Shown one piece after another: positions 3,618 to 40,238 of a stretch of DNA of 64,000 nt (position 1 is the first letter of the stretch; every line of letters starts with the position of its first letter). The position numbers were made by a program, and so were the translations under genes. The notes below the pieces were generated by a model. That model ran no database searches. It was given only the letters and a program-made list of their open reading frames with translations, and was not told the DNA's origin. Source of the stretch: Entoloma clypeatum (lineage: Eukaryota > Basidiomycota > Agaricomycetes > Agaricales > Entolomataceae); the NCBI GenBank assembly GCA_963565915.1, contig OY751491.1, positions 4,154,001-4,218,000 on the forward strand. The letters run 5' to 3'.

Positions 3618-3959
3618 TGTTGAACATATCGCCAGATATGTTGCACCATGTGCTTGTCACAGGAAGTGACTATAAGTCACTATTACCATATATGTGAGTT
3701 TATGGTACAACCACGGACGCATGACTTGTTTATGTATTGTTTGTACAATGGTCCGTGCGCATATTGGATTGGTATAAATACCCATGTATTTAGTACGATG
3801 AATCCTAACTCTTGAACACCCCAGTTCTCTGAGACGTTGTAGCTAGTTAGCTTCTTCATTCCACTAACGTCTCTTAACCAGGTTAGTCTAGCTTCCATAT
3901 GCCTTCGTACTGCTACGTCTTGAGCGCCCTTTGGGCTGCCTACGTCGGATACATCATTA
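3618..3959 (+). repeat. Copia A 5' LTR
   Basis: 342 bp. Contents in order: palindrome GTGACTATAAGTCAC (3666-3680), TATA-like TATAAATA near 3774, splice-donor-like CAG|GTTAGT at 3882 and the hairpin GCGCCCTTTGGGCTGC at 3924-3939. The minus-strand open frame within it is an LTR artefact. Confidence 0.9.
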
Positions 3960-4291
3960 GGTTATGGGCCCCGGCCCTAGCGCCGCATGCTCTAAGTATC
4001 CTAGCTTTTGCGCTATTATTGGCAGCATCCGCTTTGTATGCTAGCCTGGAGACTGGTTTCCTCAGCATCGAGTACATCGAGCTCGACGGTTCCCTCGATG
4101 GTGAACCTCGCAGCATTCGAGGTATTGAATGTACCTTTCAATGGGCCATTCTTGATCGATTGCTTGAGAGAATCCCTGTTACAATGATCGTATCACGAGA
4201 GCAAGTCCATATGGTGCCAACGGCACAGGGCTCAGTCCCTTCAGGTCTTGATGACAATGGACGCATCGTTGCACGATGCGGGGTGTGTTGA
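3899..4291 (+). CDS. Small leader ORF of copia A (doubtful)
   Basis: A 130-codon ATG frame begins in the LTR and crosses the primer-binding site. It encodes a hydrophobic segment (ALAPHALSILAFALLLAA) and an acidic tail of unknown function. It lies inside the predicted leader intron. A decayed relative of the same stretch is seen in copia C near 38917-38985, where the hydrophobic reading is partly retained. It could be chance coding of a conserved RNA leader; I do not recognise a family. Confidence 0.3.
   Translation: MPSYCYVLSALWAAYVGYIIRLWAPALAPHALSILAFALLLAASALYASLETGFLSIEYIELDGSLDGEPRSIRGIECTFQWAILDRLLERIPVTMIVSREQVHMVPTAQGSVPSGLDDNGRIVARCGVC
3960..3974 (+). other. Primer-binding site, initiator-tRNA anticodon half type
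   Basis: GGTTATGGGCCCCGG directly abuts the 5' LTR. It complements the anticodon arm of initiator methionine tRNA (the CAU anticodon lies within the pairing), the half-tRNA priming known for Drosophila copia, rather than the tRNA 3' end. The identical 15 bases occur in copia C (34390-34404) and copia B1 (42898-42912, minus). Confidence 0.8.
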
Positions 4292-4824
4292 CAGCTTGTT
4301 GTTGACAGTCAGCATTGCCCAAGGCATTGCATAGACAACACCACCTTTGACTACTCGTGTACTACGTGTGATGCAGGATCAGCCAGGACTCGAGTTCTAA
4401 ACCGCAGACGGCGTAATCGCCGTACTGAGGTACCTGTTACGGTACCTACCCAAGATGGAGATCCCACGGATCCTCCGCCCGTGTATGTTGATGATGGGAC
4501 CATCCCTGAAGCACACGGGGCACCTCCTCTTTCGCCTCCGGCCCGACAAATTCGGTTGCCGGATAATGACCCCTTAATTGAGGCGGCAAACAGAGCAAAT
4601 GAAGTCATGCTCCCTGTTCAGGGAGGGTCTTGCACCTGTGGGCAACACAGCACTCAGGGCGCACATGACGATTGGGTAGAACTAGTGATGGCATTTCATA
4701 TGCTACCACTAGACCAAACAGAGAACGAAGAATGATGATTGACAAGGCAGCTCGTCTATTTGTTTTCTGATGCGCTTTTTCGATATTTCATATGCTGATT
4801 CTATTTATGTTTTGCAGCATCATC

Positions 4825-7800
4825 ATGTCTTCAAACTCAAAACTCGACCTCGCTTCCTCCGTTCCCAAGCTCACCACCACCAACTTCTCCGTCTATCAGG
4901 AGAAGATGAGCGCCTACCTGAAGGCAGCTAAAGTGTGGAGGATCGTCACCGGCGATAAGAAAATCCCGGGTGATCCTAAAGAGACAGATTTCCAAGACAA
5001 GTTAAACACTTGGCATGAGCAGGACGATCAGGCCCAGGGCCTAATCCAGATGTCCATTTCGGACTCTCTCGTCCATCACATCAAGGGAGCTAAAACCTCC
5101 AAGGAGATGTGGGACCTGATCGCCACTAAACTGTCTACGGTCGGCCCGTCCACCGTTTTTGCTGATTTCCAGCAACTCCTCCGCACCTCTCTTTCTCCCG
5201 CCGATCCTTTATCTGGCATCGATAAGATGCAGACCCTATTTCAGCGACTCGAGCACAACCACATAGATATCCCCAAGTTCGTCCGGATCATGATGATCCT
5301 GAATGGACTGCCTCAGGGCTATGATGGTCTAGTGCACAGCATCCTCTTTGATGCGGTACACTATGTGGCGCCTGGCGGCAATCAGTCCACTGTACTCGAA
5401 ATCGGGAAAGTAATCGAGCAGGTACGCTCGGAATACTTCCGTAAAAACCCACACGCTCCACAGTCCCGGGGAAGCGCTCACGCGAACAAAATCTCTGCAG
5501 TAAAACGCGCTCGTCCCAACCCCCCAAAGTACCAGCCTCGCACTGGACCCTCTCAGGGATCTTCGGAAGGACCGGCTGCTAACCAGCAGCATTCGCATCA
5601 GCACTCCAAGCCCTGGAAAGGCAAGGGACGTGGAACTTCCACCGGGAAAACCAAGGGCAAAGGACCCTGGAAAGGTACAGAGAAGGCGCATTTTGCCTCC
5701 TCTGCCATGGATAGCGCCCCTGATGGGCAGCTTCCAATCCAGACCTTACCCAACACGGTCATTTACGGAAATGGGTCTATCTTCACTCTGCACCCCTCAT
5801 CATCCACCGACTGGAGGATAAGGAACAACCAATCGCTTGTGATTGGTAATATTCCTGGCCCAGGCCCTTTCACGGACCTGGATGGAGCGCGCACACTAGC
5901 TAACAGCATTGGTGTCCCTCCAACAGCTCAGAATCTAACTCGCCTTGTCGAGGTCCCTGCACTTCAACGAAATGAAGCTGCAATGTCAAGGCCGCTCTCA
6001 GCGCCTCCGACAATGGACCCCCGGAATCACCGCATTCCGGTTTTTGAAGAAACGCTGAGTAGAATCAGCTGGGCCGATGAGATGGAGACAGAAGACATAG
6101 CCCCCACCATAAGGGGCTATTACGATGAAGGATACGTCAACGACTATATGGAGTATGAAGTTTCCCGTGGTGATGGAAACAACGACGACATGGGGTATGT
6201 TTCACATTCGACAGCACGTACAACGCAGTTGACAAATACTTCACAGAAGCCTCTTTGGAGACGAGTGAGTGGACGGCGGTCCAATGTATTTATATCACCT
6301 GCTGTACATGCGCTTATAGCGCAAATAAATTCTCATTATGCGAATTGTGCTGAATGTAAGAAACAGAATCAATCCAACTGGATTCTTGATTCAGGTGCAT
6401 CATTGCACTTTACTTATGATATCAATGATTTCATTGAGTATACCCCACTAAAAAATCGTCAATCTGTGCAAATTGCACAGAAAGGTCACACTATTCAGAT
6501 CCTTGGACAAGGGACGGTGTTGATTAATCACACCATCAAGAAAAACGGGCGAGAACAAAACAAAATAACTCGTCTATCACCCGTTTATTATATACCAGAT
6601 TTAGACGTTCGTCTTTTATCTGTAGGCGAGATCCTTAAACAAGGAAATGAAATTAGCGGACGATTTGGTTCGATCACGCTAAAGACCAATTCAGGTCTTC
6701 CTTTGTTTATGTGTTATCCTCATAAGGCAAATGAATCGATTTATTGGCTAAATGCCACGATCATTAAAGAGGAACGAATACACTTGGTTAGCCTTAGTGT
6801 CTCACAATCTGTTGATTATGACACCTGGCACAAGCGATTCGGACACCCTTCACATGAAGTACTGCGACATGCTTCTAAACATGTCAAAGGTTTCAATGGA
6901 GTGGACAAACCGTCCACTGAGCGACCCTGCAAAGGATGCGCTCTTGGAAAGATGCCTTCAAAATCTTTCCCACCATCTCAGACACGCGCTAAAGCACCTC
7001 TTGAGCTAATCCATTCGGATTTAAAGCAATTCAAGAAGGCAACTTATAGCAAATATAATTATTATATCAGCTTTGTTGATGACTACACATCACACGCCTG
7101 GATCTCTTTATTGAGACTAAAATCCGATGCACACTCTGCACTTCGTGATTTTAATGCCATGGTTAAAAACCAATTCAATACGACAATTAAAACTTGGCGT
7201 TTTGATGGCGGCGGTGAGTTTGTCCCTTTCCAAGCAGATATGCGTGAGATGGGAATCCAGGGTGAAGTTACTGTGCCGCACCAGCCACAACAAAACGGTC
7301 GAGCGGAACGTTTTAACAGAACTTTAATGGATAAAGCACTTGCTATGTTGCATGATGCTTGCCTACCCGAAATATGGATTCAATTTGCGGTAGAACATGC
7401 ACTTCACTTGTATAACCGAACTCCATTGAAAAGACATGGATGGCTTACTCCGTATGAGTCCCTTAAAAAGGAAAAGCCTGATGTGTCGAACCTACACGTT
7501 TTTGGATGTGGAGCTTACGTCTTTCTTCCAAAAGAAATTCGTACTACCACCGCTAAATCCGAGCTGATGATCTTCATCGGATTTAAAACTGGAACTAAAG
7601 GTTACCGGTTTATGCGAATTCCAAACAACGTAGTCTTCATAGGTGTCACAGCAATGTTTGATGAACAGCTGTTCCCAAAATGTTCTACAATGAACAAAAT
7701 ACCTTCGATAACACAATACCATGATCCAACATCAGACGATATGGGAAACGATGATGCAAATGGACATGATGGCCCGTCTGTTTTACCAACCGATGATTTC

Positions 7801-8163
7801 CATTCGGAAGATAATGATGCACATGGTCCTGGTGGTTCACGTTACCCGTCTAATCCAGGAACCCATGATGACAATCATAACCTCCCTGATATAAATAGCG
7901 ACCAAACTGGTCAGCTTCCCGAAGGTTCCAGTCAGACTTCTGATGGAACAAACAGACAGGACACCGCTGAGAATCAGCAGTGGGTTCCCCGGACTCGCAA
8001 TCCAGGGAAACGTGTGCGCATAGATGCACCAAACGATGATCGTGCCTTACCAGGCGATTATCGTCCACAAACTGATCGTCCTCGTCGTACTCGGGTTATA
8101 CCCCAGCGTCCTGGAAATGTTTATGGGAACAACCCGGCTGAGGCCTTGTCAAAATCAGCGTGA
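4825..8163 (+). CDS. Copia A Gag-protease-integrase polyprotein
   Basis: 1112 codons from ATG at 4825, placed just after a splice-acceptor-like site; an in-frame ATG at 4792 gives 11 more residues. Domains: copia Gag (about 1-230), Gly/Lys-rich basic tail without a CCHC knuckle, retropepsin with WILDSGASLHF (~519), GAG-pre-integrase HHCC (HKRFGH...CKGC, ~665-710), integrase core (Asp in HSDLK ~732, Asp in DGGGE ~794, Glu in GRAERFNR), with 33 residues between the second Asp and Glu. The frame ends with TGA at 8161-8163 after the Asp/Pro-rich linker; reverse transcriptase follows in the +1 frame. Confidence 0.85.
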   Translation: MSSNSKLDLASSVPKLTTTNFSVYQEKMSAYLKAAKVWRIVTGDKKIPGDPKETDFQDKLNTWHEQDDQAQGLIQMSISDSLVHHIKGAKTSKEMWDLIATKLSTVGPSTVFADFQQLLRTSLSPADPLSGIDKMQTLFQRLEHNHIDIPKFVRIMMILNGLPQGYDGLVHSILFDAVHYVAPGGNQSTVLEIGKVIEQVRSEYFRKNPHAPQSRGSAHANKISAVKRARPNPPKYQPRTGPSQGSSEGPAANQQHSHQHSKPWKGKGRGTSTGKTKGKGPWKGTEKAHFASSAMDSAPDGQLPIQTLPNTVIYGNGSIFTLHPSSSTDWRIRNNQSLVIGNIPGPGPFTDLDGARTLANSIGVPPTAQNLTRLVEVPALQRNEAAMSRPLSAPPTMDPRNHRIPVFEETLSRISWADEMETEDIAPTIRGYYDEGYVNDYMEYEVSRGDGNNDDMGYVSHSTARTTQLTNTSQKPLWRRVSGRRSNVFISPAVHALIAQINSHYANCAECKKQNQSNWILDSGASLHFTYDINDFIEYTPLKNRQSVQIAQKGHTIQILGQGTVLINHTIKKNGREQNKITRLSPVYYIPDLDVRLLSVGEILKQGNEISGRFGSITLKTNSGLPLFMCYPHKANESIYWLNATIIKEERIHLVSLSVSQSVDYDTWHKRFGHPSHEVLRHASKHVKGFNGVDKPSTERPCKGCALGKMPSKSFPPSQTRAKAPLELIHSDLKQFKKATYSKYNYYISFVDDYTSHAWISLLRLKSDAHSALRDFNAMVKNQFNTTIKTWRFDGGGEFVPFQADMREMGIQGEVTVPHQPQQNGRAERFNRTLMDKALAMLHDACLPEIWIQFAVEHALHLYNRTPLKRHGWLTPYESLKKEKPDVSNLHVFGCGAYVFLPKEIRTTTAKSELMIFIGFKTGTKGYRFMRIPNNVVFIGVTAMFDEQLFPKCSTMNKIPSITQYHDPTSDDMGNDDANGHDGPSVLPTDDFHSEDNDAHGPGGSRYPSNPGTHDDNHNLPDINSDQTGQLPEGSSQTSDGTNRQDTAENQQWVPRTRNPGKRVRIDAPNDDRALPGDYRPQTDRPRRTRVIPQRPGNVYGNNPAEALSKSA

Positions 8164-10006
8164 TTGGAGCAGAACCGTTCAGGAGGATTCACGGCGATAC
8201 GCCTATAATCCCCGATCGGAGACCAGACCCCAGCAATCTGGCGCTGTTCCATCAACTAGCTCCGCTGATCCTCAGATGTATCAGAACAATTCCAATCCGA
8301 ATCCGGATATAGATATGGAGGAATTACTCTATATTAGGGAAGGGGGAGGACAGTCACAAATGCTTGCGCACTTGCTATCTAAAGCAATCCCTGCATATGA
8401 CGAAATTCCACAAGACCCAAAGTCTTGGCAAATGAAGGACATAAATAAGCTACCTGAAAAGGAAAAGCTTGAATGGAAAGCAGCATGCCGTGGGGAACTA
8501 GAAGCCCTCCGGAAGCGCAATGTCTTTAAGTTGGTTGACCTGCCTAAAGGTCGTAAAACCATCAGAAATCGATGGGTATTCGACGTCAAAACTGACGGAC
8601 GAAAGAAGGCACGACTCGTTGCCAAGGGTTTCTCACAGATCGAGGGTATCGATTTTGATGAGATCTTCTCACCTGTGATACGTTTCGAGACTATCCGAAT
8701 CCTCTTCGCCGTAGCTGCGCTTGAAGGATGGGTGATTGAAGGAGTAGATGTCAAATCAGCTTTTCTCTATGGAGAGCTCGATGAGGAAATCTATATGAAT
8801 CAACCCGAAGGCTTTGTTGTCAAAGGCCAAGAACAGAAGGTCATCCGTTTATTAAAAGCACTCTATGGCCTAAAACAGGCTGCAAGAGCGTGGTGGATCG
8901 CGCTCAATGCATCAATGGAGAAGCTAGGTTTTACTCGATGTAGAACTGACTCAGGCGTCTTTGTTTACCACAACAAACAATCAGGTGATTTGATAATCGC
9001 TTTGATCTATGTTGATGACGGCCTGTTCATGGGATCAAACCCAGATCTTGTTCGCAAGATAAAATCTGACTTTAAAAATAAATGGGAAAGTCGTGATCTT
9101 GGTATTGCTAAAGAATTCTTGCGTATGAGAATACGACAAGATTCGGGAAAGCAGATCGTAACAATCAATCAGTCAGAATACCTGAAGAAGATCATTAAGC
9201 GCTTTGGCTTAGAAAATGCAAAGGCTGCTGACACTCCACTCCCAAAGGGTTATTACCCTGCACCAAATGAGGGGGAGGTGGATCCCACACTCAAAACAAG
9301 GTACCAAATGATCATTGGATCGTTGTTGTACTTGTCCATTGGAACGAGACCGGACATTGCTTTTGCAGTTGCAAAAATGTCACAAATGTCTGCAAACCCT
9401 TCCAAAGAGCATGAGAAATACGCTCTACGGATTATCAGATATCTTGTCGGTACTCAAGACTATTCTATAATTTATGATGGTCGATCCAAGGCTTCCTTTG
9501 AAGCATGGACAGATTCAGACTGGGCATCAGACCCATCTGATAGAAAATCCCAATCGGGATATTTCCTTAAGCTTGCAGGAGGACTTGTTCTTTGGAAAAG
9601 TCGCAAGCAAAAGACAGTGGCACATTCGTCCACTGAGGCGGAAATGGTTGCTGCCAGTGAATGTTCACGGGAGTGCGAATGGGTTACTCATCTCTTCAAA
9701 GAGCTTGGACTACAGGACATTACCAAAATGCCGTTCCATGTAGATAACCAAGGCGCGATTTTCAATGCGCAAAACCCAGTCACTGAAGGCAGAACCAAAC
9801 ATATAGCAATCCATCACTTTGCTATACGCGATAGAGTTAAAGATGGATTGATCGAACCACGGTTCGTTCCGGGAACAGAGAATCCGGCTGATATGTTTAC
9901 CAAGCCACTTGGTCGCCAGGAATTTGAGAAATTCCGTGCTCTACTCCGAATGGAGTTTAAAGAGCCTTATACTCCACTTACGAAACCTACCCGGGATTCT
10001 AAGTGA
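8146..10006 (+). CDS. Copia A reverse transcriptase-RNase H (frameshifted from upstream pol)
   Basis: Frame 2 carries copia RVT_2: RNRWVFDVKTDGRKKARLVAKGFSQ begins the palm, followed by VDVKSAFLYGELDEEIYM, ALYGLKQAARAWW and the catalytic YVDDGLF. RNase H follows with TDSDWASD, SSTEAEMVAASE and HVDNQGAIF. The product needs fusion to the upstream polyprotein, but the two are one frame apart, so this copy is either mutated or uses a frameshift. It ends at TAA 10004-10006, eight bases before the 3' LTR. In the copia B family the same junction is in one frame. Confidence 0.85.
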
Positions 10007-10013
10007 GGGGGAG
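10003..10013 (+). other. Polypurine tract of copia A
   Basis: GTGAGGGGGAG abuts the 3' LTR start TGTTGAAC. Copia C has the same GAGGGGGAG before its own TGTTGAG. Confidence 0.75.
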
Positions 10014-10355
10014 TGTTGAACATATCGCCAGATATGTCGCACCATGTGCTTGTCACAGGAAGTGACTATAAGTCACTATTACCATATATGTGAGTTTATG
10101 GTACAACCACGGACGCATGACTTGTTTATGTATTGTTTGTACAATGGTCCGTGCGCATATTGGATTAGTATAAATACCCATGTATTTAGTACGGAAAATC
10201 CTAACTCTTGAACACCCCAGTTCTCTGAGACGTTGTAGCTAGTTAGCTTCTTCATTCCACTAACGTCTCTTAACCAGGTTAGTCTAGCTTCCATATGCCT
10301 TCGTACCGCTACGTCTTGAGCGCCCTTTGGGCTGCCTACGTCGGATACATCATTA
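10014..10355 (+). repeat. Copia A 3' LTR
   Basis: 342 bp, about six differences from the 5' LTR by eye. It carries the same palindrome (10062-10076), TATA-like box and hairpin (10320-10335), and is followed by the duplication ATCTG. Confidence 0.9.
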
Positions 10356-21096: not shown

Positions 21097-21445
21097 TAAT
21101 GAAGTAACCGACATAGGCAGCCCAAAGGGCGCTCAAGATGTAACGGTACGAAGGCATGAAGGAAGCTCAACTAACCTGGTTAAGAGTAACTAGAGAAATT
21201 CTAGAAGCTGTACTAGCTTGTTAGTTAACTCAAAGAACTGGGGTGTTCAAGAAGTTAGGATTCACTGTACTAAATACATGGGTATTTATACTAATCCAAT
21301 ATGCGCACGGACCATTGTACAAACAATACATAAACAAGTCATGCGTCCGTGGTTATACCATAAACTCACATATATGGTAATAGTGACTTATAGTCACTTT
21401 CTGTGTCAAGCACATAGTGCAACATATCTGGCAATATGTTCAACA
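21097..21445 (-). repeat. Solo LTR of a copia A relative
   Basis: About 349 bp matching the copia A LTR on the minus strand from TAATG (LTR end) to GTTCAACA (LTR start), with many substitutions. It keeps the inverted hairpin GCAGCCCAAAGGGCGC (about 21119-21134), the TATA region and the palindrome GTGACTTATAGTCAC (21383-21397). No 5-bp duplication is visible, so the insertion is old or its ends are altered. Confidence 0.75.
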
Positions 21446-33943: not shown

Positions 33944-33948
33944 TTCTC

Positions 33949-34389
33949 TGTTGAGAATACATTCTAGACGGATGTCTCGACAAGTCAATCACATGTCTAT
34001 AAACATGTGTATTCCCATATGGAGTTACATATGGAAGTGTTCTAGACTTAGAACAATCTAGACTCAATCTAGATCCCTGACTCATTAGATATGTGTCAGA
34101 CGTGCATAACATATGTCATGTTATGTCACATCATGTGCTTGTCACACTATGTGACTATAAGTCACATATTACCATATACGTGAGTTTATGGTTCTGCGAC
34201 AGAGCTCAGTTTGTACTTGTTTGTACATGGTCTGTGCGCATCCTTGTAGGTATAAATACTTGATGTATCTGTATCTGCAATAATAGGACTTTTACTAAGT
34301 ACCTTCATCGCTCAAGCTCTCTCTCTTCTTACCTCCAATGTGAGTACCTTACCCAGGCTTCCCTGTGTATGTAGGTGTGCTGTTCAATA
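33949..34389 (+). repeat. Copia C 5' LTR
   Basis: 441 bp, TGTTGAGAATAC...GTTCAATA (again ending TA). Contains the palindrome GTGACTATAAGTCAC at 34151-34165, TATAAATA near 34252 and splice-donor-like ATGTGAGT at 34338-34345. Confidence 0.92.
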
Positions 34390-34404
34390 GGTTATGGGCC
34401 CCGG
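34390..34404 (+). other. Primer-binding site of copia C
   Basis: GGTTATGGGCCCCGG, identical to copia A and B1, immediately after the LTR. Confidence 0.8.
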
Positions 34405-34501
34405 TTTGCCCGGTACAGTCTGCGCACTCTAACGGAGTTGCTGCGACTGTCTAGCCTGTTAGATACTAACCTGGCCTAGCCAGTGAGCGCGAGTCTTAAA
34501 A

Positions 34502-34805
34502 GCGCCCTTTGGGCTGCTACCGCCTCTTTAGCTAGTAGCATAGACTAGTCTAAGTTAGTTATCTGGTTTGATACTCGGAGGTTCCAGACTAGTGAGCGCC
34601 CTTTGGGCTGCACCTAGTTCTGATGTCCAAGACTAGCAAAGCGCCCCTAGGGCTGCATCTAGTTCTTGATCTAGACTAGGGCCTTTTATGGCCTATGTCT
34701 ATATTTGGACATTTTGTATAAAGCCTGTGGCTTGAGCGCCTTGATAGGCGGCCGCCACACCCCTGTGAAAAACCCTCTCTTGTATCTGCGCCTTCATTTG
34801 GCTGC
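34502..34805 (+). repeat. Hairpin motif cluster 1 in copia C (five copies)
   Basis: Copies of GCGCC-N-GGCTGC at 34502-34517, 34596-34611, 34641-34656, about 34736-34755 and 34788-34805, all on the plus strand. The first two are the exact GCGCCCTTTGGGCTGC of the copia A LTR. Each can fold as a GCG/TGC plus CCC/GGG stem with a bulged C and a 3-7 base loop. Confidence 0.7.
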
Positions 34806-35663
34806 GATCTAGATTTGGGGTTTTCTCACGCTGTGTCATGTCCTGTCTGGCATTTGGTTTCAAAACCAAATCGAGTATATCTCGATGTGCTGACATTCGG
34901 ACATTACGATTCTCAGGAACTTTCTGTTCCATGAACTTTTTCGTCGATCGATCTTGATCCATTGCACCCTGTACCTGATAGAAGCACCCTTTTTTGGGTT
35001 GCCTCAGGGACTTCCCATTTTTATGGTTGCACGATCTCAGATTTGATGCTGACTTAAAATCGTTCCTAGATGAAAGGATCTTGCATCTGCTTCCATTATG
35101 GTTTCATTCAAGCAAACCATTGGTCACACTGTGACATCCGCGTCATTCAGCGTGATGACGGTTTCCACAGACGACACCTCTGTACTCTGAATTGCATGGT
35201 CACACCACGCATTCGGAAGGTGAAAGTCACGCAATTGCGATACAGACGGCATGCACGCCATGTCTGTACTCGCAAATGTGGAAAGAAAAAAGCAGTATGC
35301 ATCCTCATCTACATTCTCTTCACTCGTTGAACTATGACTCTAGAATCCCTGGGCGCCACGCCCGAGTAATATCCAAAGAGCTCGAACGAGGGACTTACCG
35401 TCCCCCTTCAATCACAGTGACAATGAAGAAAGAAGAATCACACCCGAGGTTACACCCGGGGTAATAAAGATGGAGCAATCGCCTGAACTATAGGCGACCG
35501 TCTTTATGTAAATACCACAGCATTGTGACCCTTAGTCACATAAATAAAGGCTATTACATAAAACTCTCTTTGACATGTGTCACAAACAATTCAGACAATA
35601 CCTCTTATCGGTTCAAATTGGTCTTGAATATTTGCTGACCACTGTTTCTTTTTAGAAACAAAC

Positions 35664-36526
35664 ATGTCTTCAATCACTTCTTTGATTGCTGTTCCCGTTC
35701 TTGACAGCACAAACTACCCTGAGTGGGCGAACACCATGTGTTCGTTCCTTAGATCTCAGGATTTGTGGCAAATTGTTGATGGTGCTGAAAAGCGACCCTT
35801 GATGTCTGCTAACCTTACAAGGAAAGCCCATACAACTAAAGTCAAGGCATGGAACATTAGGGATCAAATGGCTTTAGCCAATATTTGACTTCGTGTCGAC
35901 CCGTCGATCAAACTCACCAAGAATATGTCTTCTGAGACTTGGTTTGAGTTGAAGAATAGGTTCGGACGAGCTGTTTATGAAACAGTTCTGTCTGACATTC
36001 GTGCTGCATTATCCTTCAAACTTTCTATGAAGCGACAACCTGCAAACCGAGATTGATTATCTTGATAAAATCTTTGATCATCTCGGCGCACATCATTCTA
36101 TTTCTCCATCGACTCGGGCCCTAATGCTTCTATCTGCCCTCCCGTCTCCTGATTGGGATGACTTTGCCATAGAAACCCTTCTTTACAATGATGATCTCAC
36201 CTATGATAAGGTTCGAGAATTGATTGTTGAAACATACAATCATCATCGTGTTGACCCTGTTCCCGATTTGTCACTTGAGGATTACCTTTACGGCATAGGT
36301 ATCTCCTATGATCCTCAACCGACATCGTGCGATGTTTTTCATCAGCCGTTTCGGAACTTATGGAAAAAGAAGCTTTTCTTATCTGCACCAACAGACCCTG
36401 GTGCTCTGCGCTACTCTAGCTGTGTCACCGGTCTGGTGCATGATGCCGTCATAACAGAACAATGCAAGGGTCCACCCGTCGACAATTACGACATAGCGTT
36501 TCCACGCCTGGACCTTATAACAGCAT
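35664..36526 (+). pseudogene. Copia C Gag, broken
   Basis: Starts MSSITSLIAVPVLDSTNYPEW, a copia Gag N-terminus (compare copia A MSSNSKLDLAS). TGA at 35886-35888 is likely a former CGA. A frameshift near 36035 precedes IDYLDKIFDHLGAHH and the Gag centre LLSALPSPDWDDFAIETLL to about 36280; the tail to the stop at 36526 is not recognised. There is no zinc knuckle and nothing of protease. No hairpin motif lies in this segment. Confidence 0.75.
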
Positions 36527-38490
36527 AATCATTGTGTAGAACGATTGTATTTTCTTTCTTTGCAATCAATACATTGATTTGCAATGTTCATATTTTGAAT
36601 GAAAGAAAGAGAGATTTAAAAATGCAAAAGGCATTTTATGTTCAAATAACTTATATCCAATCTGGAATAATTCCAATAAGTTGGATGTGCCGTTGAGCCA
36701 CCTACTATAAAGGAAACAGCTTAATAAGCTTGTTAAAAAGACTGCGCGAGTCATTAATTTGTCTTTCTGCTGCGTCTATCTTTCCTTTTCAGGAATTAAT
36801 ATTCCACCTTATATTGGATAAGACAAAAAATACTTTTAAAGTATTATATTTGTGCGCTATGGCATTTGCATAACACTAATTCTGCGCCTTGACAGGCTGC
36901 GATAGTGTTCAAAATTGTCATTCTGGCTGCCAATATATAATACTTTATTATCAGAAGAAGAGTTTTTCAACCCTTCAACCTAAATCGATTCAAATTGGTC
37001 TAGCCAACCAATCTTGTTCCTCCACTCTTTCACCAAAAAGTAGTGATGATTTGGGGCAATGCAAAGCTTCTTATCTGAACTCTCCATTTCTTGCATGGGA
37101 ATGATCTCTGATGCATCTTGCGCCTTTTAGGCTAGCATTGCATTTTGACTTATAAGGCATCTGCGCTTTAATCAAGCAGCGATGACCTTGTCACAGAATC
37201 ATATAGGGATGACCGTGATATTACACACCCTATGGCAAAAATGGATATAGTCAAAAAATCAGATTGTATCACAGCTTACAAATATTGCTGGAATAAATCG
37301 CCTGAGAGTAATTACCTCAGCATAACTTGGAGAGTAATTCCTCCGCAGTTTGCGATTATTTTTTCTGCATGAATTTCTGGTTTCCCAACCAAGTTCTGCA
37401 TCTATTTCAGTATATGCTCTTTGAAAGCCAAAGATACATGGGAAATGATTGCCATACTTGACTGTGAAAAGGGGGAGAATATAGAGAAGCATTTTAATGG
37501 CAGCATTCTGCGCTATTTGCTTTGCGATACCATTGCTAGAAGACTGATCTTTGATCTTTTGATCTCACTATCAGATGCATTGCTTCGTATACAACACTCT
37601 ATAGGTTGTACCATTAAAGGAGCGCCGTGACCGCTGCATACTTATCAAATGGTCAACTTGAACAAAAGAAAAAGCTTATCCCAGCTTATACCCCTATGAT
37701 TTCTCACCTAGAAACGATGAATTCTGGATAAAAGAGAATATCATATGAATCGATCCGTTAGTCTTATCAGACTATTGTTGGGTTCTATTCCCAAGTATAT
37801 CTTCTATGATTACTTGATGAAGCATCTTAATTGATGACTTACTAATAATGCATTAATTTGCATTATATGGTTCTTGGAATACCAAGATTACTATTTGATC
37901 ACATGAAACGCATCAGAGTGCTTGTTACACTCTTGAGATTTGGATCAACCCATCATCTGATCTGCGCCTTGTTTTGGCTGCGACAATGATCTGGTTCTTG
38001 CATTGAGTAGAGCGCCTGTGTTGGCTGCCTCCTTTGACAAACAAGACCAAATAACACCCTCACGCGTTATTGTTGTATCATGCAACAAACATAGTAAATC
38101 TGTGTTGATGTCTTAGAGTGGATTCTCTATTGACCTCTGAACATAAATCGGTTGTTCACCAACATAAGTATTGCCAACTACAAAGAACTACATCGCAAGT
38201 CATTTATTTGACTATAATCTGCAATATTGCTTGCACATCATCACATATAACAGTTGGCTTGGTTGCCTATAAAATCTGTAAAATGTACTCCATGGAATTG
38301 GTTTTCAGGGGGAGATAATTCATTCTCTATTAATCCTAAAACAATCCACATGATGTTTGCTTGTCTAGCCTTTGCATAACAATGTGCGCCCCTTTGGGCT
38401 TGCCACAGTTACTAGGCTTGATTATATCTGCGCTCAAATAATGGCTGCAATATCAATCATTGTGATTATATTTTGCAATAGCTTGGATAG

Positions 38491-38519
38491 TACGTCAGAC
38501 GATATGGGAAACGATGGCG
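38491..38519 (+). other. Fragment of copia A-type integrase tail inside copia C
   Basis: ACGTCAGACGATATGGGAAA and the next bases match the linker after integrase in copia A (about 7730-7755, ACATCAGACGATATGGGAAA), the only trace of pol in copia C. Confidence 0.55.
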
Positions 38520-38916
38520 AAACTACCAGCTGTCTCAGATATTATATTCTGAAGACTCAACATCCACTATGACGATAAACTAGGACCCTACTCCGGAACA
38601 GAGCATAAACTATCACAGTGGACTCTGAACCTAACTAGTTCATCCACATCCCTGAAGTCTGGAGTATTACACTCGACTCAGATGACATTATCTATGAGCA
38701 CACCTTAAGTGTTGCCATGATAATATTACATACTCAGGATAAAGGCACCCTTGTCTAAAAATCCATGGTTGTTAGCGCCTTATTTGGCAGCTTCCCAGAG
38801 TATTAATAAGCTATTTATAGCTTAGATCATGCCAAGCATGATATCATCAGTTGGTTAAATGACCCTTTGAGCCAGATCAAGTCTAACGAGCTCTTAATTG
38901 AGTTATGTCTTCTGAC

Positions 38917-39235
38917 TTATCCCCGGCCTTAGTGCCACATGCTCTTTCCATACTAGTTCTTGCGCTACTACTGGCTGCAACTACTATGTGATCCATAAAA
39001 AACTGAGTACCACTACGTCTTGAGCGCCTTCTGGGGCTGCCTGCATTGGTAGTCTCATTTTTGTGTGAATCATGGTCAAAACCATTGATACTCGTCTGGA
39101 ATGACAATAAACTATCACACGTGGTTCGCTGATGCAATCAGGCCAAACACCTGACTCAGCATGGTCCGTGCGAGATAGGCAAAGCCTTAAATACGCTCCT
39201 CAAAAGGAATTTTAGAGCAGGCTTCCAATGGCATT
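38917..39235 (+). other. Rearranged leader, U5 and promoter-like pieces of an A-type element in copia C
   Basis: 38917-38985 resembles the copia A leader just after its primer site (CCCCGGCCTTAGTGCCACAT...). 39005-39045 resembles the copia A LTR end (CTACGTCTTGAGCGCCTTCT). 39160-39235 resembles the LTR promoter (ATGGTCCGTGCG, then TTAAATAC and GCTTCCAATG). The order is scrambled relative to copia A, as from template switching. Confidence 0.5.
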
Positions 39236-39413
39236 CTTCGCCTACTTCTCCACCGCCTTCTACACTCGCTTCGCACATGCCAACCAGTTGGCGCATGTTG
39301 CCCCGACCAACGCCAGCACCACCACCACCACCACTACTGCAGCCTCCGCCGCTGCTTCCTCATCGCCCTCTAGCAGTAACACTGCTACGACCACCGACGA
39401 CAAGAAACGTTGA
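39228..39413 (+). CDS. Small Thr/Ala/Ser-rich ORF of copia C (doubtful)
   Basis: 61 codons, MAFFAYFSTAFYTRFAHANQ then a Thr/Ala/Ser run and a charged end DDKKR. It starts about 25 bases after an LTR-promoter-like stretch with TTAAATAC. The start context GCTTCCAATG resembles GCTTCCATATG of the copia A leader ORF. No family recognised. Confidence 0.3.
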   Translation: MAFFAYFSTAFYTRFAHANQLAHVAPTNASTTTTTTTAASAAASSSPSSSNTATTTDDKKR

Positions 39414-39783
39414 AGGAAAACTAAAGTAGATAGTGGTAGAAGTAATTAAATAATCAATTACTTCAGTGGCTGCTCTAAGCGCTACACTGGCTGCTTCAAG
39501 TGCCATTCTGGCTGCATGTTAATTGCGCTATTTCATATCTCTCAAAGGTATTTTTATCCTTTGATGATCTATTGATCTCAGATTGACTTCTGATGAGACC
39601 TGTCTATTCTTGTTTTGGAATTAGACTTGGGGTCTCTGATAAGACCTTAAATGACAGCGTATGCTAAACGACACAGCAGATCCCCTTTAGCGCCCTTACG
39701 GCTGCTGCCATTTATTTTGGCTCTTCACTAGGACTTGAATGTCTTCTTGTGAGCAAGTATTGAAACCTGAAGGAATCACACTT

Positions 39784-39792
39784 GAGGGGGAG
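39784..39792 (+). other. Polypurine tract of copia C
   Basis: GAGGGGGAG next to the 3' LTR, the same as in copia A. Confidence 0.75.
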
Positions 39793-40233
39793 TGTTGAGA
39801 ATACATTCTAGACGGATGTCTCGACAAGTCAATCACATGTCTATAAACATGTGTATTCCCATATGGAGTTACATATGGAAGTGTTCTAGACTTAGAACAA
39901 TCTAGACTCAATCTAGATCCCTGACTCATTAGATATGTATCAGACGTGCATAACATATGTCATGTTATGTCACATCATGTGCTTGTCACACTATGTGACT
40001 ATAAGTCACATATTACCATATACGTGAGTTTATGGTTCTGCGACAGAGCTCAGTTTGTACTTGTTTGTACATGGTCTGTGCGCATCCTTGTAGGTATAAA
40101 TACTTGATGTATCTGTATCTGCAATAATAGGACTTTTACTAAGTACCTTCATCGCTCAAGCTCTCTCTCTTCTTACCTCCAATGTGAGTACCTTACCCAG
40201 GCTTCCCTGCGTATGTAGGTGTGCTGTTCAATA
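39793..40233 (+). repeat. Copia C 3' LTR
   Basis: 441 bp, two differences from the 5' copy; palindrome at 39995-40009. Followed by TTCTC. Confidence 0.92.
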
Positions 40234-40238
40234 TTCTC

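Follow-up and report, generated by a model that had tools for sequence, protein, structure and literature searches.

The window analysed here, a 64 kb stretch of DNA from the basidiomycete Entoloma clypeatum in which chromodomain gypsy and copia elements are present, contains a complete long terminal repeat (LTR) retrotransposon of copia type, element C (33949-40233), which has no pol and whose sense RNA carries many copies of one short bulged hairpin. An autonomous copia element in the same window, copia A, carries the same hairpin and is a candidate helper of C. Positions are those of the window, and genome searches covered 60 Mb in 20 contigs. Apart from its hairpins, element C consists of the following parts:

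33944-33948 and 40234-40238: target-site duplication (TSD) TTCTC
33949..34389, + strand: 5′ LTR, beginning with TG and ending with TA, hairpin-free
34390..34404, + strand: primer-binding site (PBS) GGTTATGGGCCCCGG, identical to copia A 3960-3974
35664..36528, + strand: gag, not intact here, with a first stop after 74 aa
39228..39413, + strand: second short open reading frame (ORF; MAFFAYFSTAFYTRFAHA.., rich in T, A and S, with D and K residues at its end), 61 aa here
39784..39792, + strand: polypurine tract (PPT) GAGGGGGAG, identical to copia A 10005-10013
39793..40233, + strand: 3′ LTR

The C family: copies, age and coding capacity

Comparison of the LTRs bore out an earlier note on this DNA, which had described 441 bp LTRs with two differences and a TTCTC duplication. 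The insertion of C split a copy of copia B; at the corresponding site, two other B copies in the window run through without a break. Searching the genome with the LTR gave at least 41 matches (40 candidates scored), from which 20 regions were fetched; 14 hold a full copy inside the stretch (L044-L057) and were used as siblings, and L058-L063, whose C copies are solo, rearranged or truncated by the ends of the stretch, were excluded from copy counts. The siblings are colinear with C, 96-98% identical and 6191-6335 bp long, with small internal gaps in three. Longer C places contain nested insertions, of part of the 21.8-23 kb repeat (L064) and of copia B (L065). An older subfamily, C2, is 75-88% identical to C across most alignable pieces and keeps the leader hairpins described below.

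The LTR pairs of the siblings differ by no substitution in seven cases, by one in one case and by two in six, one of these last pairs differing additionally by two gap positions. At the boundaries used, 12 of the 14 are flanked by a perfect 5 bp duplication, and the other two had been cut with a different LTR end. With at most two substitutions between the LTRs of every sibling (n=14), the recent movement that had been proposed for element C holds for the family. The same copies diverge from the window copy by 2-4%, and near-identical LTR pairs combined with such divergence among copies imply that several diverged C lineages were active in recent time.

As had also been claimed, element C lacks pol: none of 15 C copies, the window copy and all 14 siblings, resembled copia A or copia B in pol at E<=0.01, in a search that found its positive control. 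Young copies without pol cannot have moved alone, and they strongly imply that C is mobilised in trans, with copia A as a candidate helper.

The gag gene had been described as a relic, which is true of the window copy and not of the family. The ORF is intact, at 287-288 aa, in 11 of the 14 siblings and likewise in L064, whose Gag matches Retrotran_gag_2 (PF14223); the siblings without an intact gag have 74 aa (L049), 168 aa (L045) or no start that could be found (L053). Diversity at codon positions 1, 2 and 3 is 0.0149, 0.0137 and 0.0292, and dN/dS is 0.26 among the 11 copies and 0.23 and 0.33 against two gag parts of the C2 copy L066; gag of C is under purifying selection. For the N-terminal part of gag, dS between C and C2 is about 0.54. 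No homologue of C Gag was found at E<=1e-3 among 627 candidates. The second short ORF is open, at 61-77 aa, in all 16 C copies read, with a C2 counterpart 72% identical; the ten variable sites in its first 25 codons (3, 2 and 5 by codon position) are weak evidence of coding constraint.

A bulged hairpin repeated along the sense strand

The hairpin recurs through the leader and the long 3′ region of C, and once within gag. The places in the window copy are:

34424..34441, + strand: hairpin alpha, weak here (11.6 bits), with C-versus-C2 covariation in its outer stem
34502..34517, + strand: hairpin beta GCGCCCTTTGGGCTGC
34596..34611, + strand: hairpin gamma GCGCCCTTTGGGCTGC, lower stem CTAG/CTAG
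34641..34656, + strand: hairpin GCGCCCCTAGGGCTGC
34736..34752, + strand: hairpin epsilon GCGCCTTGATAGGCGGC, bulge G
34788..34805, + strand: hairpin GCGCCTTCATTTGGCTGC
34984..35002, + strand: hairpin eta, 14.8 bits, with a counterpart in C2
36408..36423, + strand: hairpin within gag, last base mutated here
36884..36900, + strand: hairpin with outer stem ACACTA/TAGTGT
37120..37136, + strand: variant hairpin, 2 nt bulge
37163..37180, + strand: hairpin GCGCTTTAATCAAGCAGC
37964..37981, + strand: hairpin GCGCCTTGTTTTGGCTGC
38012..38028, + strand: hairpin GCGCCTGTGTTGGCTGC
38386..38403, + strand: variant hairpin, 2 nt bulge
38430..38448, + strand: hairpin GCGCTCAAATAATGGCTGC
38775..38791, + strand: hairpin GCGCCTTATTTGGCAGC
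38962..38978, + strand: hairpin GCGCTACTACTGGCTGC
39024..39040, + strand: hairpin GCGCCTTCTGGGGCTGC
39479..39494, + strand: hairpin GCGCTACACTGGCTGC
39500..39515, + strand: hairpin, 13.4 bits here, GCGCCATTATGGCTGC in L044
39690..39705, + strand: hairpin GCGCCCTTACGGCTGC

We scanned for these structures with a strict rule, 5′-GC GCN(n) loop (n)NGC W GC-3′, in which a single nucleotide bulges from the 3′ arm. From the base upwards the hairpin has two G-C pairs, the bulge (U or A in nearly all), a G-C pair, a C-G pair, a pair that is C-G, U-A or U-G, a freely changing fourth pair and a loop of 3-8 nt. The scan found 15 hairpins on the sense strand of C and three on the opposite strand. The earlier note had proposed a count against shuffled sequence as a check, and 500 dinucleotide shuffles of C gave 0.13 hairpins on average and two at most, not the similar counts that it had named as a refutation. 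The shape is specific: bulges of 0, 1, 2 and 3 nt on the 3′ arm yield 0, 15, 2 and 0 hairpins, and when all 256 tetramers are tried at the 5′ end, GCGC ranks first with 15 and the runner-up gives five. Under the strict rule every one of the 14 siblings has 15-19 hairpins on the sense strand and three or four on the other.

The motif written in the earlier note, GCGCC-N(3-9)-GGC(T/A)GC, has 16 matches in the window against 0.12 expected, and 1206 in the genome, where the reversed pattern has 208. It had been listed at 17 places in C; 10 of these match it exactly and 15 fit the rule of a 1 nt bulge, the remaining two (37120 and 38386) having 2 nt bulges. A covariance model trained on 22 hairpins, of which one C copy supplied 18 and the C2 copy L066 four, recovered all 17 at 12.6 bits or more; copia A was absent from model building, but the hairpin in its U5 is identical to a C hairpin. 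The model placed two weak matches on the minus strand of C and 22 on the plus strand, five of which (34424, 34984, 36408, 37622 and 39500) extend the earlier list. One of these five lies in gag, which had been thought free of hairpins, and this hairpin (36408-36423) is intact in 10 of the 14 siblings.

Across the window, the model gave 20 matches at E<=0.1, comprising 14 in C and five in copia A or its solo LTR, all in sense, and one elsewhere; extended to E 10, the total was 34, with 22 on the plus and two on the minus strand of C, six in A or its solo LTR and four elsewhere. A well-paired match at 2312-2331 on the minus strand (GCGCCGGTTATTCCGGCTGC) is probably due to chance; it lies in a proline-rich frame, which has no Pfam match at E<=0.01, within a repeat that has 14 places in the genome. 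A simple scan of five further stretches of the window, of which three are LTR elements, gave no hairpin or one per strand.

When hairpins are anchored at their ends only, the next inward pair forms in 18 of the 21 anchor matches of L044, in 16 of the 18 of the window copy and in all five of A. Minimum-energy folds with 18 nt flanks form all four core pairs checked in 18 of 23 hairpins. Natural flanks of C add more outer pairs than shuffled ones (9.0 vs 5.7; combined energy z -5.7). None of 4227 Rfam families matched at E<=1 across 33949-40233. Two adjacent hairpins at 39463-39515 are made by tandem units, each about 21 bp long (GGCTGCTCTAAGCGCTACACTGGCTGCTTCAAG..), which are also seen in C2 (L071); new hairpins may arise here by duplication.

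The stems are constrained. Among non-CpG G/C sites in the 15 copies, 1 of 128 is variable in stems versus 128 of 1350 in other non-coding parts of C (p about 1e-4), and among CpG sites the figures are 10 of 43 and 79 of 196 (p 0.04). When each of the 15 copies in turn supplied the hairpin definitions and only the others were scored, stem rates ran from 0/116 to 3/116 (p 4e-5 to 0.03). A test of stem diversity that ignored base context was not significant (nucleotide diversity, pi, 0.0127 vs 0.0223; 8.4% of random placements were as low), because CpG sites dominate the variation, and the context-matched test was relied on. Loops (pi 0.0216) and bulges (0.0212) are about as diverse as the 3′ region (0.0224) and the leader (0.0261).

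Paired changes in the inner stem had been reported from the window copy, together with the proposal that other copies be compared. The C copies keep the stems, and C2 mostly keeps them or co-varies: beta, CCC/GGG in C, is CCT/AGG in C2, and the inner C-G pair of gamma has become G-C in L066 and L067. Stem changes lacking compensation in other copies had been named as a refutation; this did not come about, although some C2 changes are uncompensated. For alpha, an alignment of 15 pairs in eight sequences has 98.3% of cells paired, and its covariation score and number of cells changed on both sides were matched by 1 of 500 shuffles. For the 22-hairpin alignment the same two measures were matched by 0 of 500, a result that is partly built in because its rows came from a scan demanding the first three inner pairs; in both, the shuffles ignore the relatedness of the sequences. 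Both alignments accept G-U pairs in stems, which argues for structure at the level of RNA.

Short GC palindromes form mobile clusters in fungal mitochondria, and this precedent favours reading the hairpins as a DNA-level or neutral feature, that is, mobile GC-rich palindromes, recombination junk or chance. We regard that reading as hardly credible, given 0.13 hairpins expected from shuffling, 15 in sense against three in antisense, tolerance of G-U pairs, one variable site among 128 in stems, the 0-1 hairpins per strand of other elements, and the absence of any clean insertion of a hairpin between the leaders of C and C2. Rather, a selected cis-acting RNA element in C is well supported. The earlier note had proposed such an element, situated in the non-coding part; the shuffles, the specificity for strand and bulge, the constraint on stems and the sharing with copia A bear this out, with the qualification that the hairpins lie mostly, and not wholly, in non-coding parts. 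Its further suggestion that the hairpins had been amplified is plausible from the numbers, 15-19 per C sibling vs five in one C2 copy (5.45 kb, two stretches read) and four in A. The alignment of C with C2 is unreliable in the 3′ half, too poor to infer gain or loss of single hairpins there. L072, whose LTR and leader seem mostly lost and which the model does not match at E<=5, was excluded as evidence.

Copia A and the candidate ligands of the hairpin

The features of copia A and of its solo LTR in the window are:

3618..10355, + strand: copia A, with gag-pol ORFs 4792-8163 and 8024-10006 and TSD ATCTG
3618-3959 and 10014-10355: LTRs of copia A
3924..3939, + strand: hairpin in U5, repeated at 10320-10335
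4010..4026, + strand: leader hairpin GCGCTATTATTGGCAGC
4910..4928, + strand: hairpin inside the gag coding sequence
5714..5731, + strand: hairpin in the Gag-Pol ORF, beyond the match to the Gag domain
21117..21132, - strand: hairpin of the A-type solo LTR

The exact form of the motif that had been placed in the U5 of copia A and in its solo LTR is indeed present at 3924, 10320 and 21117 (minus strand), and the hairpins at 4010, 4910 and 5714 add to that record. Copia A thus has four hairpins per unit in sense and one on the other strand, and none of 500 shuffles reached four. Two of the four (3924 and 4010) lie near the 5′ end of the RNA. Only A and its solo LTR have C-like LTRs in the window (E<=1e-8; 78% identity over 173 bp that take in the TATA region); the LTRs of both elements start with TGTTGA and end with TA, and the PBS and PPT are common to A and C. 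These shared features support copia A as the helper of C with moderate confidence. By eye, the flanks of two C hairpins at 38953-39045 (CTACGTCTTGAGCGCC.., CTAG-TTCTTGCGCTA..) resemble the U5 and leader flanks of A (3915-4035) in swapped order, a likeness hinting at an exchange of modules.

In the A-family Gag codons, the synonymous sites of loop and bulge at 4910-4928 are far more variable than the codons just downstream. The third base of the Leu codon in the loop is C in 15, G in 45, T in 25 and A in 13 cases, the bulge is A in 70, T in 25 and G in three, and two synonymous sites of the inner stem are invariant in 98 of 98 genome places. The pattern is suggestive, and only that, of RNA-level constraint on this hairpin. 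A search with A residues 1-480 at E<=1e-3 returned one copia protein, 28% identical, from the 7990 best-sharing candidates scored, and no relative of copia A gag-pol was found in viral contigs. The exact 16-mer occurs in 13 stretches of IMG/VR, with one exact match each and seven further model matches (E<=1) overall, which we attribute to chance.

A predicted protein ligand from copia A is likely, as is a predicted role of the hairpins in packaging. The A Gag contains a basic stretch (residues 216-310, 95 residues, with 18 K/R vs 3 D/E), and the last 90 residues of C Gag have 8 K/R vs 11 D/E and form no basic tail; a CCHC knuckle was found in neither Gag. The lack of a basic tail or zinc knuckle bears against the idea that C's own Gag binds the hairpins and that A retains them through common leader ancestry only, as do the hairpins at 4910 and 5714 in A's own ORF, at places without a counterpart in C. 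That C2 Gag and the leader hairpins have long been kept together (dS about 0.54) speaks for it, and on balance we find it quite improbable.

We give a similarly low probability to a variant in which the hairpins recruit the Pol of A (integrase or reverse transcriptase) into particles of C's own Gag, so that C would borrow the enzyme and supply the shell. The purifying selection on a gag ORF intact in 11 of 14 siblings fits this variant, as does the presence of one hairpin in A and C although their Gags are just 27% identical. With no recognisable RNA-binding tail on C Gag, however, the RNA of C would need its own route into C particles.

The hairpins might instead be sites for a host protein that acts in the export from the nucleus, stability, localisation or translation of a long RNA, with copia A using the same host factor. 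They are spread over the whole C RNA, beyond the leader, and the long non-coding 3′ part could call for protection or export; the sharing with A is equally compatible with a common host pathway and with common packaging. Against this stands the distribution of the hairpin in the window, where only A and C have more than one and the other LTR stretches have 0-1 per strand despite the same needs. We consider a host ligand unlikely, and we return below to a ligand supplied by copia A.

Comparison with known systems and a model for C

TR-GAG elements are defined by two LTRs, a Gag domain and no pol (PMC6022998). Element C shares all three and is a TR-GAG-type element by this rule: it has two LTRs, a PBS, a PPT and Gag as its sole conserved polyprotein domain, gag being broken in the window copy. 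It differs from that class in being a copia-type element of a basidiomycete, in its long non-coding stretches, in the 15-19 bulged hairpins and in having another short ORF; the definition in the available text of PMC6022998 does not include repeated RNA hairpins.

Element C also resembles the large retrotransposon derivatives (LARDs) in its long non-coding internal region. LARDs are thought to be mobilised in trans. The Gag ORF intact in 11 of 14 siblings separates C from LARDs, which are at least 2 kb long and by rule contain no coding domain (PMC6022998). The nearest packaging parasite that we found in the available sources is BARE2 of barley, a copia subfamily packaged into particles of its autonomous relative BARE1; it is unable to make Gag, and the remainder could be translatable (PMC3735527). 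Element C differs, as it keeps Gag and lacks pol, whereas a BARE2-like parasite would retain pol with Gag translation abolished.

The array itself can be compared with MS2 and satellite tobacco necrosis virus, whose packaging signals are distributed along the RNA and have been shown to contact the coat protein (PMC4836477). Their stem-loops are numerous and degenerate, lie in coding as well as non-coding sequence and have a recognition feature in common, and single ones are not always essential. The RNA of C likewise has many stem-loops with one such feature; here it is a bulged stem, not a loop motif, in an LTR retrotransposon, and any protein contact is putative. Ty1 offers a likeness within the copia superfamily: its packaging sequences lie within the first 580 nt (PMC4974528), a donor RNA transposes with helper-supplied proteins, and the 5′ region holds a pseudoknot whose packaging role is not settled (PMC4974528, PMC8396678). 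The available portions of these two papers describe no repeated hairpin array for Ty1, and no title or abstract opening among the open-licence papers found pointed to such an array in any LTR retrotransposon. In a bivalve terminal-repeat retrotransposon in miniature (TRIM), a conserved hairpin site is a possible PBS (PMC6934838).

Our data are consistent with a model in which C, a copia family that encodes Gag but is not autonomous, has 15-19 bulged hairpins (GC-GCN..NGC-W-GC) in its sense RNA as putative binding sites that act in cis for a protein from autonomous copia A. The ligand would most likely be the basic tail of A Gag, and the A protein would sort C RNA into A particles, where the reverse transcriptase and integrase of A may copy it and insert the product. 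With 15-19 sites vs the four of A, C RNA would be favoured in competition. As a whole, the explanation that the hairpins bind a protein supplied by A, and that C RNA is packaged in A particles, has in our judgement a slightly better than even chance of being correct.

Several observations pull the other way. A PBS and PPT of the A/C kind are common in copias, C Gag is just 27% identical to A Gag over 157 aa, and C encodes its own selected Gag, so that A Gag is not obligatory. Six other copias on contig C1 match C2 Gag at 36-41% over only about 80 aa, which is not like for like with the 27% of A, and no listed hairpin of two searched patterns lies within 6 kb of them. The A hairpins at 4910 and 5714 sit 1-2 kb into the RNA, beyond a Ty1-like region; codons just outside 4910 are nearly as invariant as its stem (0-7 changes among 71 of 101 places), and the hairpin at 5714 has hardly any variation, in loop or stem, across 92 places. 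As for the structure, the 12 nt flanks are not clearly conserved (pi 0.0198 vs 0.0224 and 0.0261), the end-anchored test forms the next inward pair in only four of nine cases in the C2 copy L066, and C2 has uncompensated stem changes in gamma (L068), in eta and epsilon (L066) and in beta (L069). Nor do all covariation measures stand out: in alpha, three pairs changed on both sides were matched by 93 of 500 shuffles and pair types by 484, and in the 22-hairpin alignment the corresponding figures are 397 and 192 of 500. With no listed hairpin near the six copias and several in A, the hairpin seems linked to A-type LTRs and not to the nearest Gag lineage of C.

Carried further, the model would make C a satellite retrotransposon without a polymerase: its Gag would serve as capsid alone, another small protein would be kept beside it, and the packaging hairpin of the helper would have been multiplied to 4-5 times the helper's number, letting C RNA outcompete helper RNA for the helper's enzymes. 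We offer this tentatively, as a possibility that falls short of an even chance. Were it true, C would extend the distributed packaging-signal array to an LTR retrotransposon, with a recognition code, G-C and C-G pairs around a 1 nt U or A bulge below a variable loop, readable from sequence.

Overall, one short structural code occurs 15-19 times in a parasite, four times in its likely helper and fewer times in an older subfamily than in the parasite itself. The constraint on stems together with free variation in loops makes the ligand, the code and the advantage of copy number testable with short RNAs. A family without pol has spread recently and yet keeps a selected capsid gene, a logic close to that of a satellite virus.

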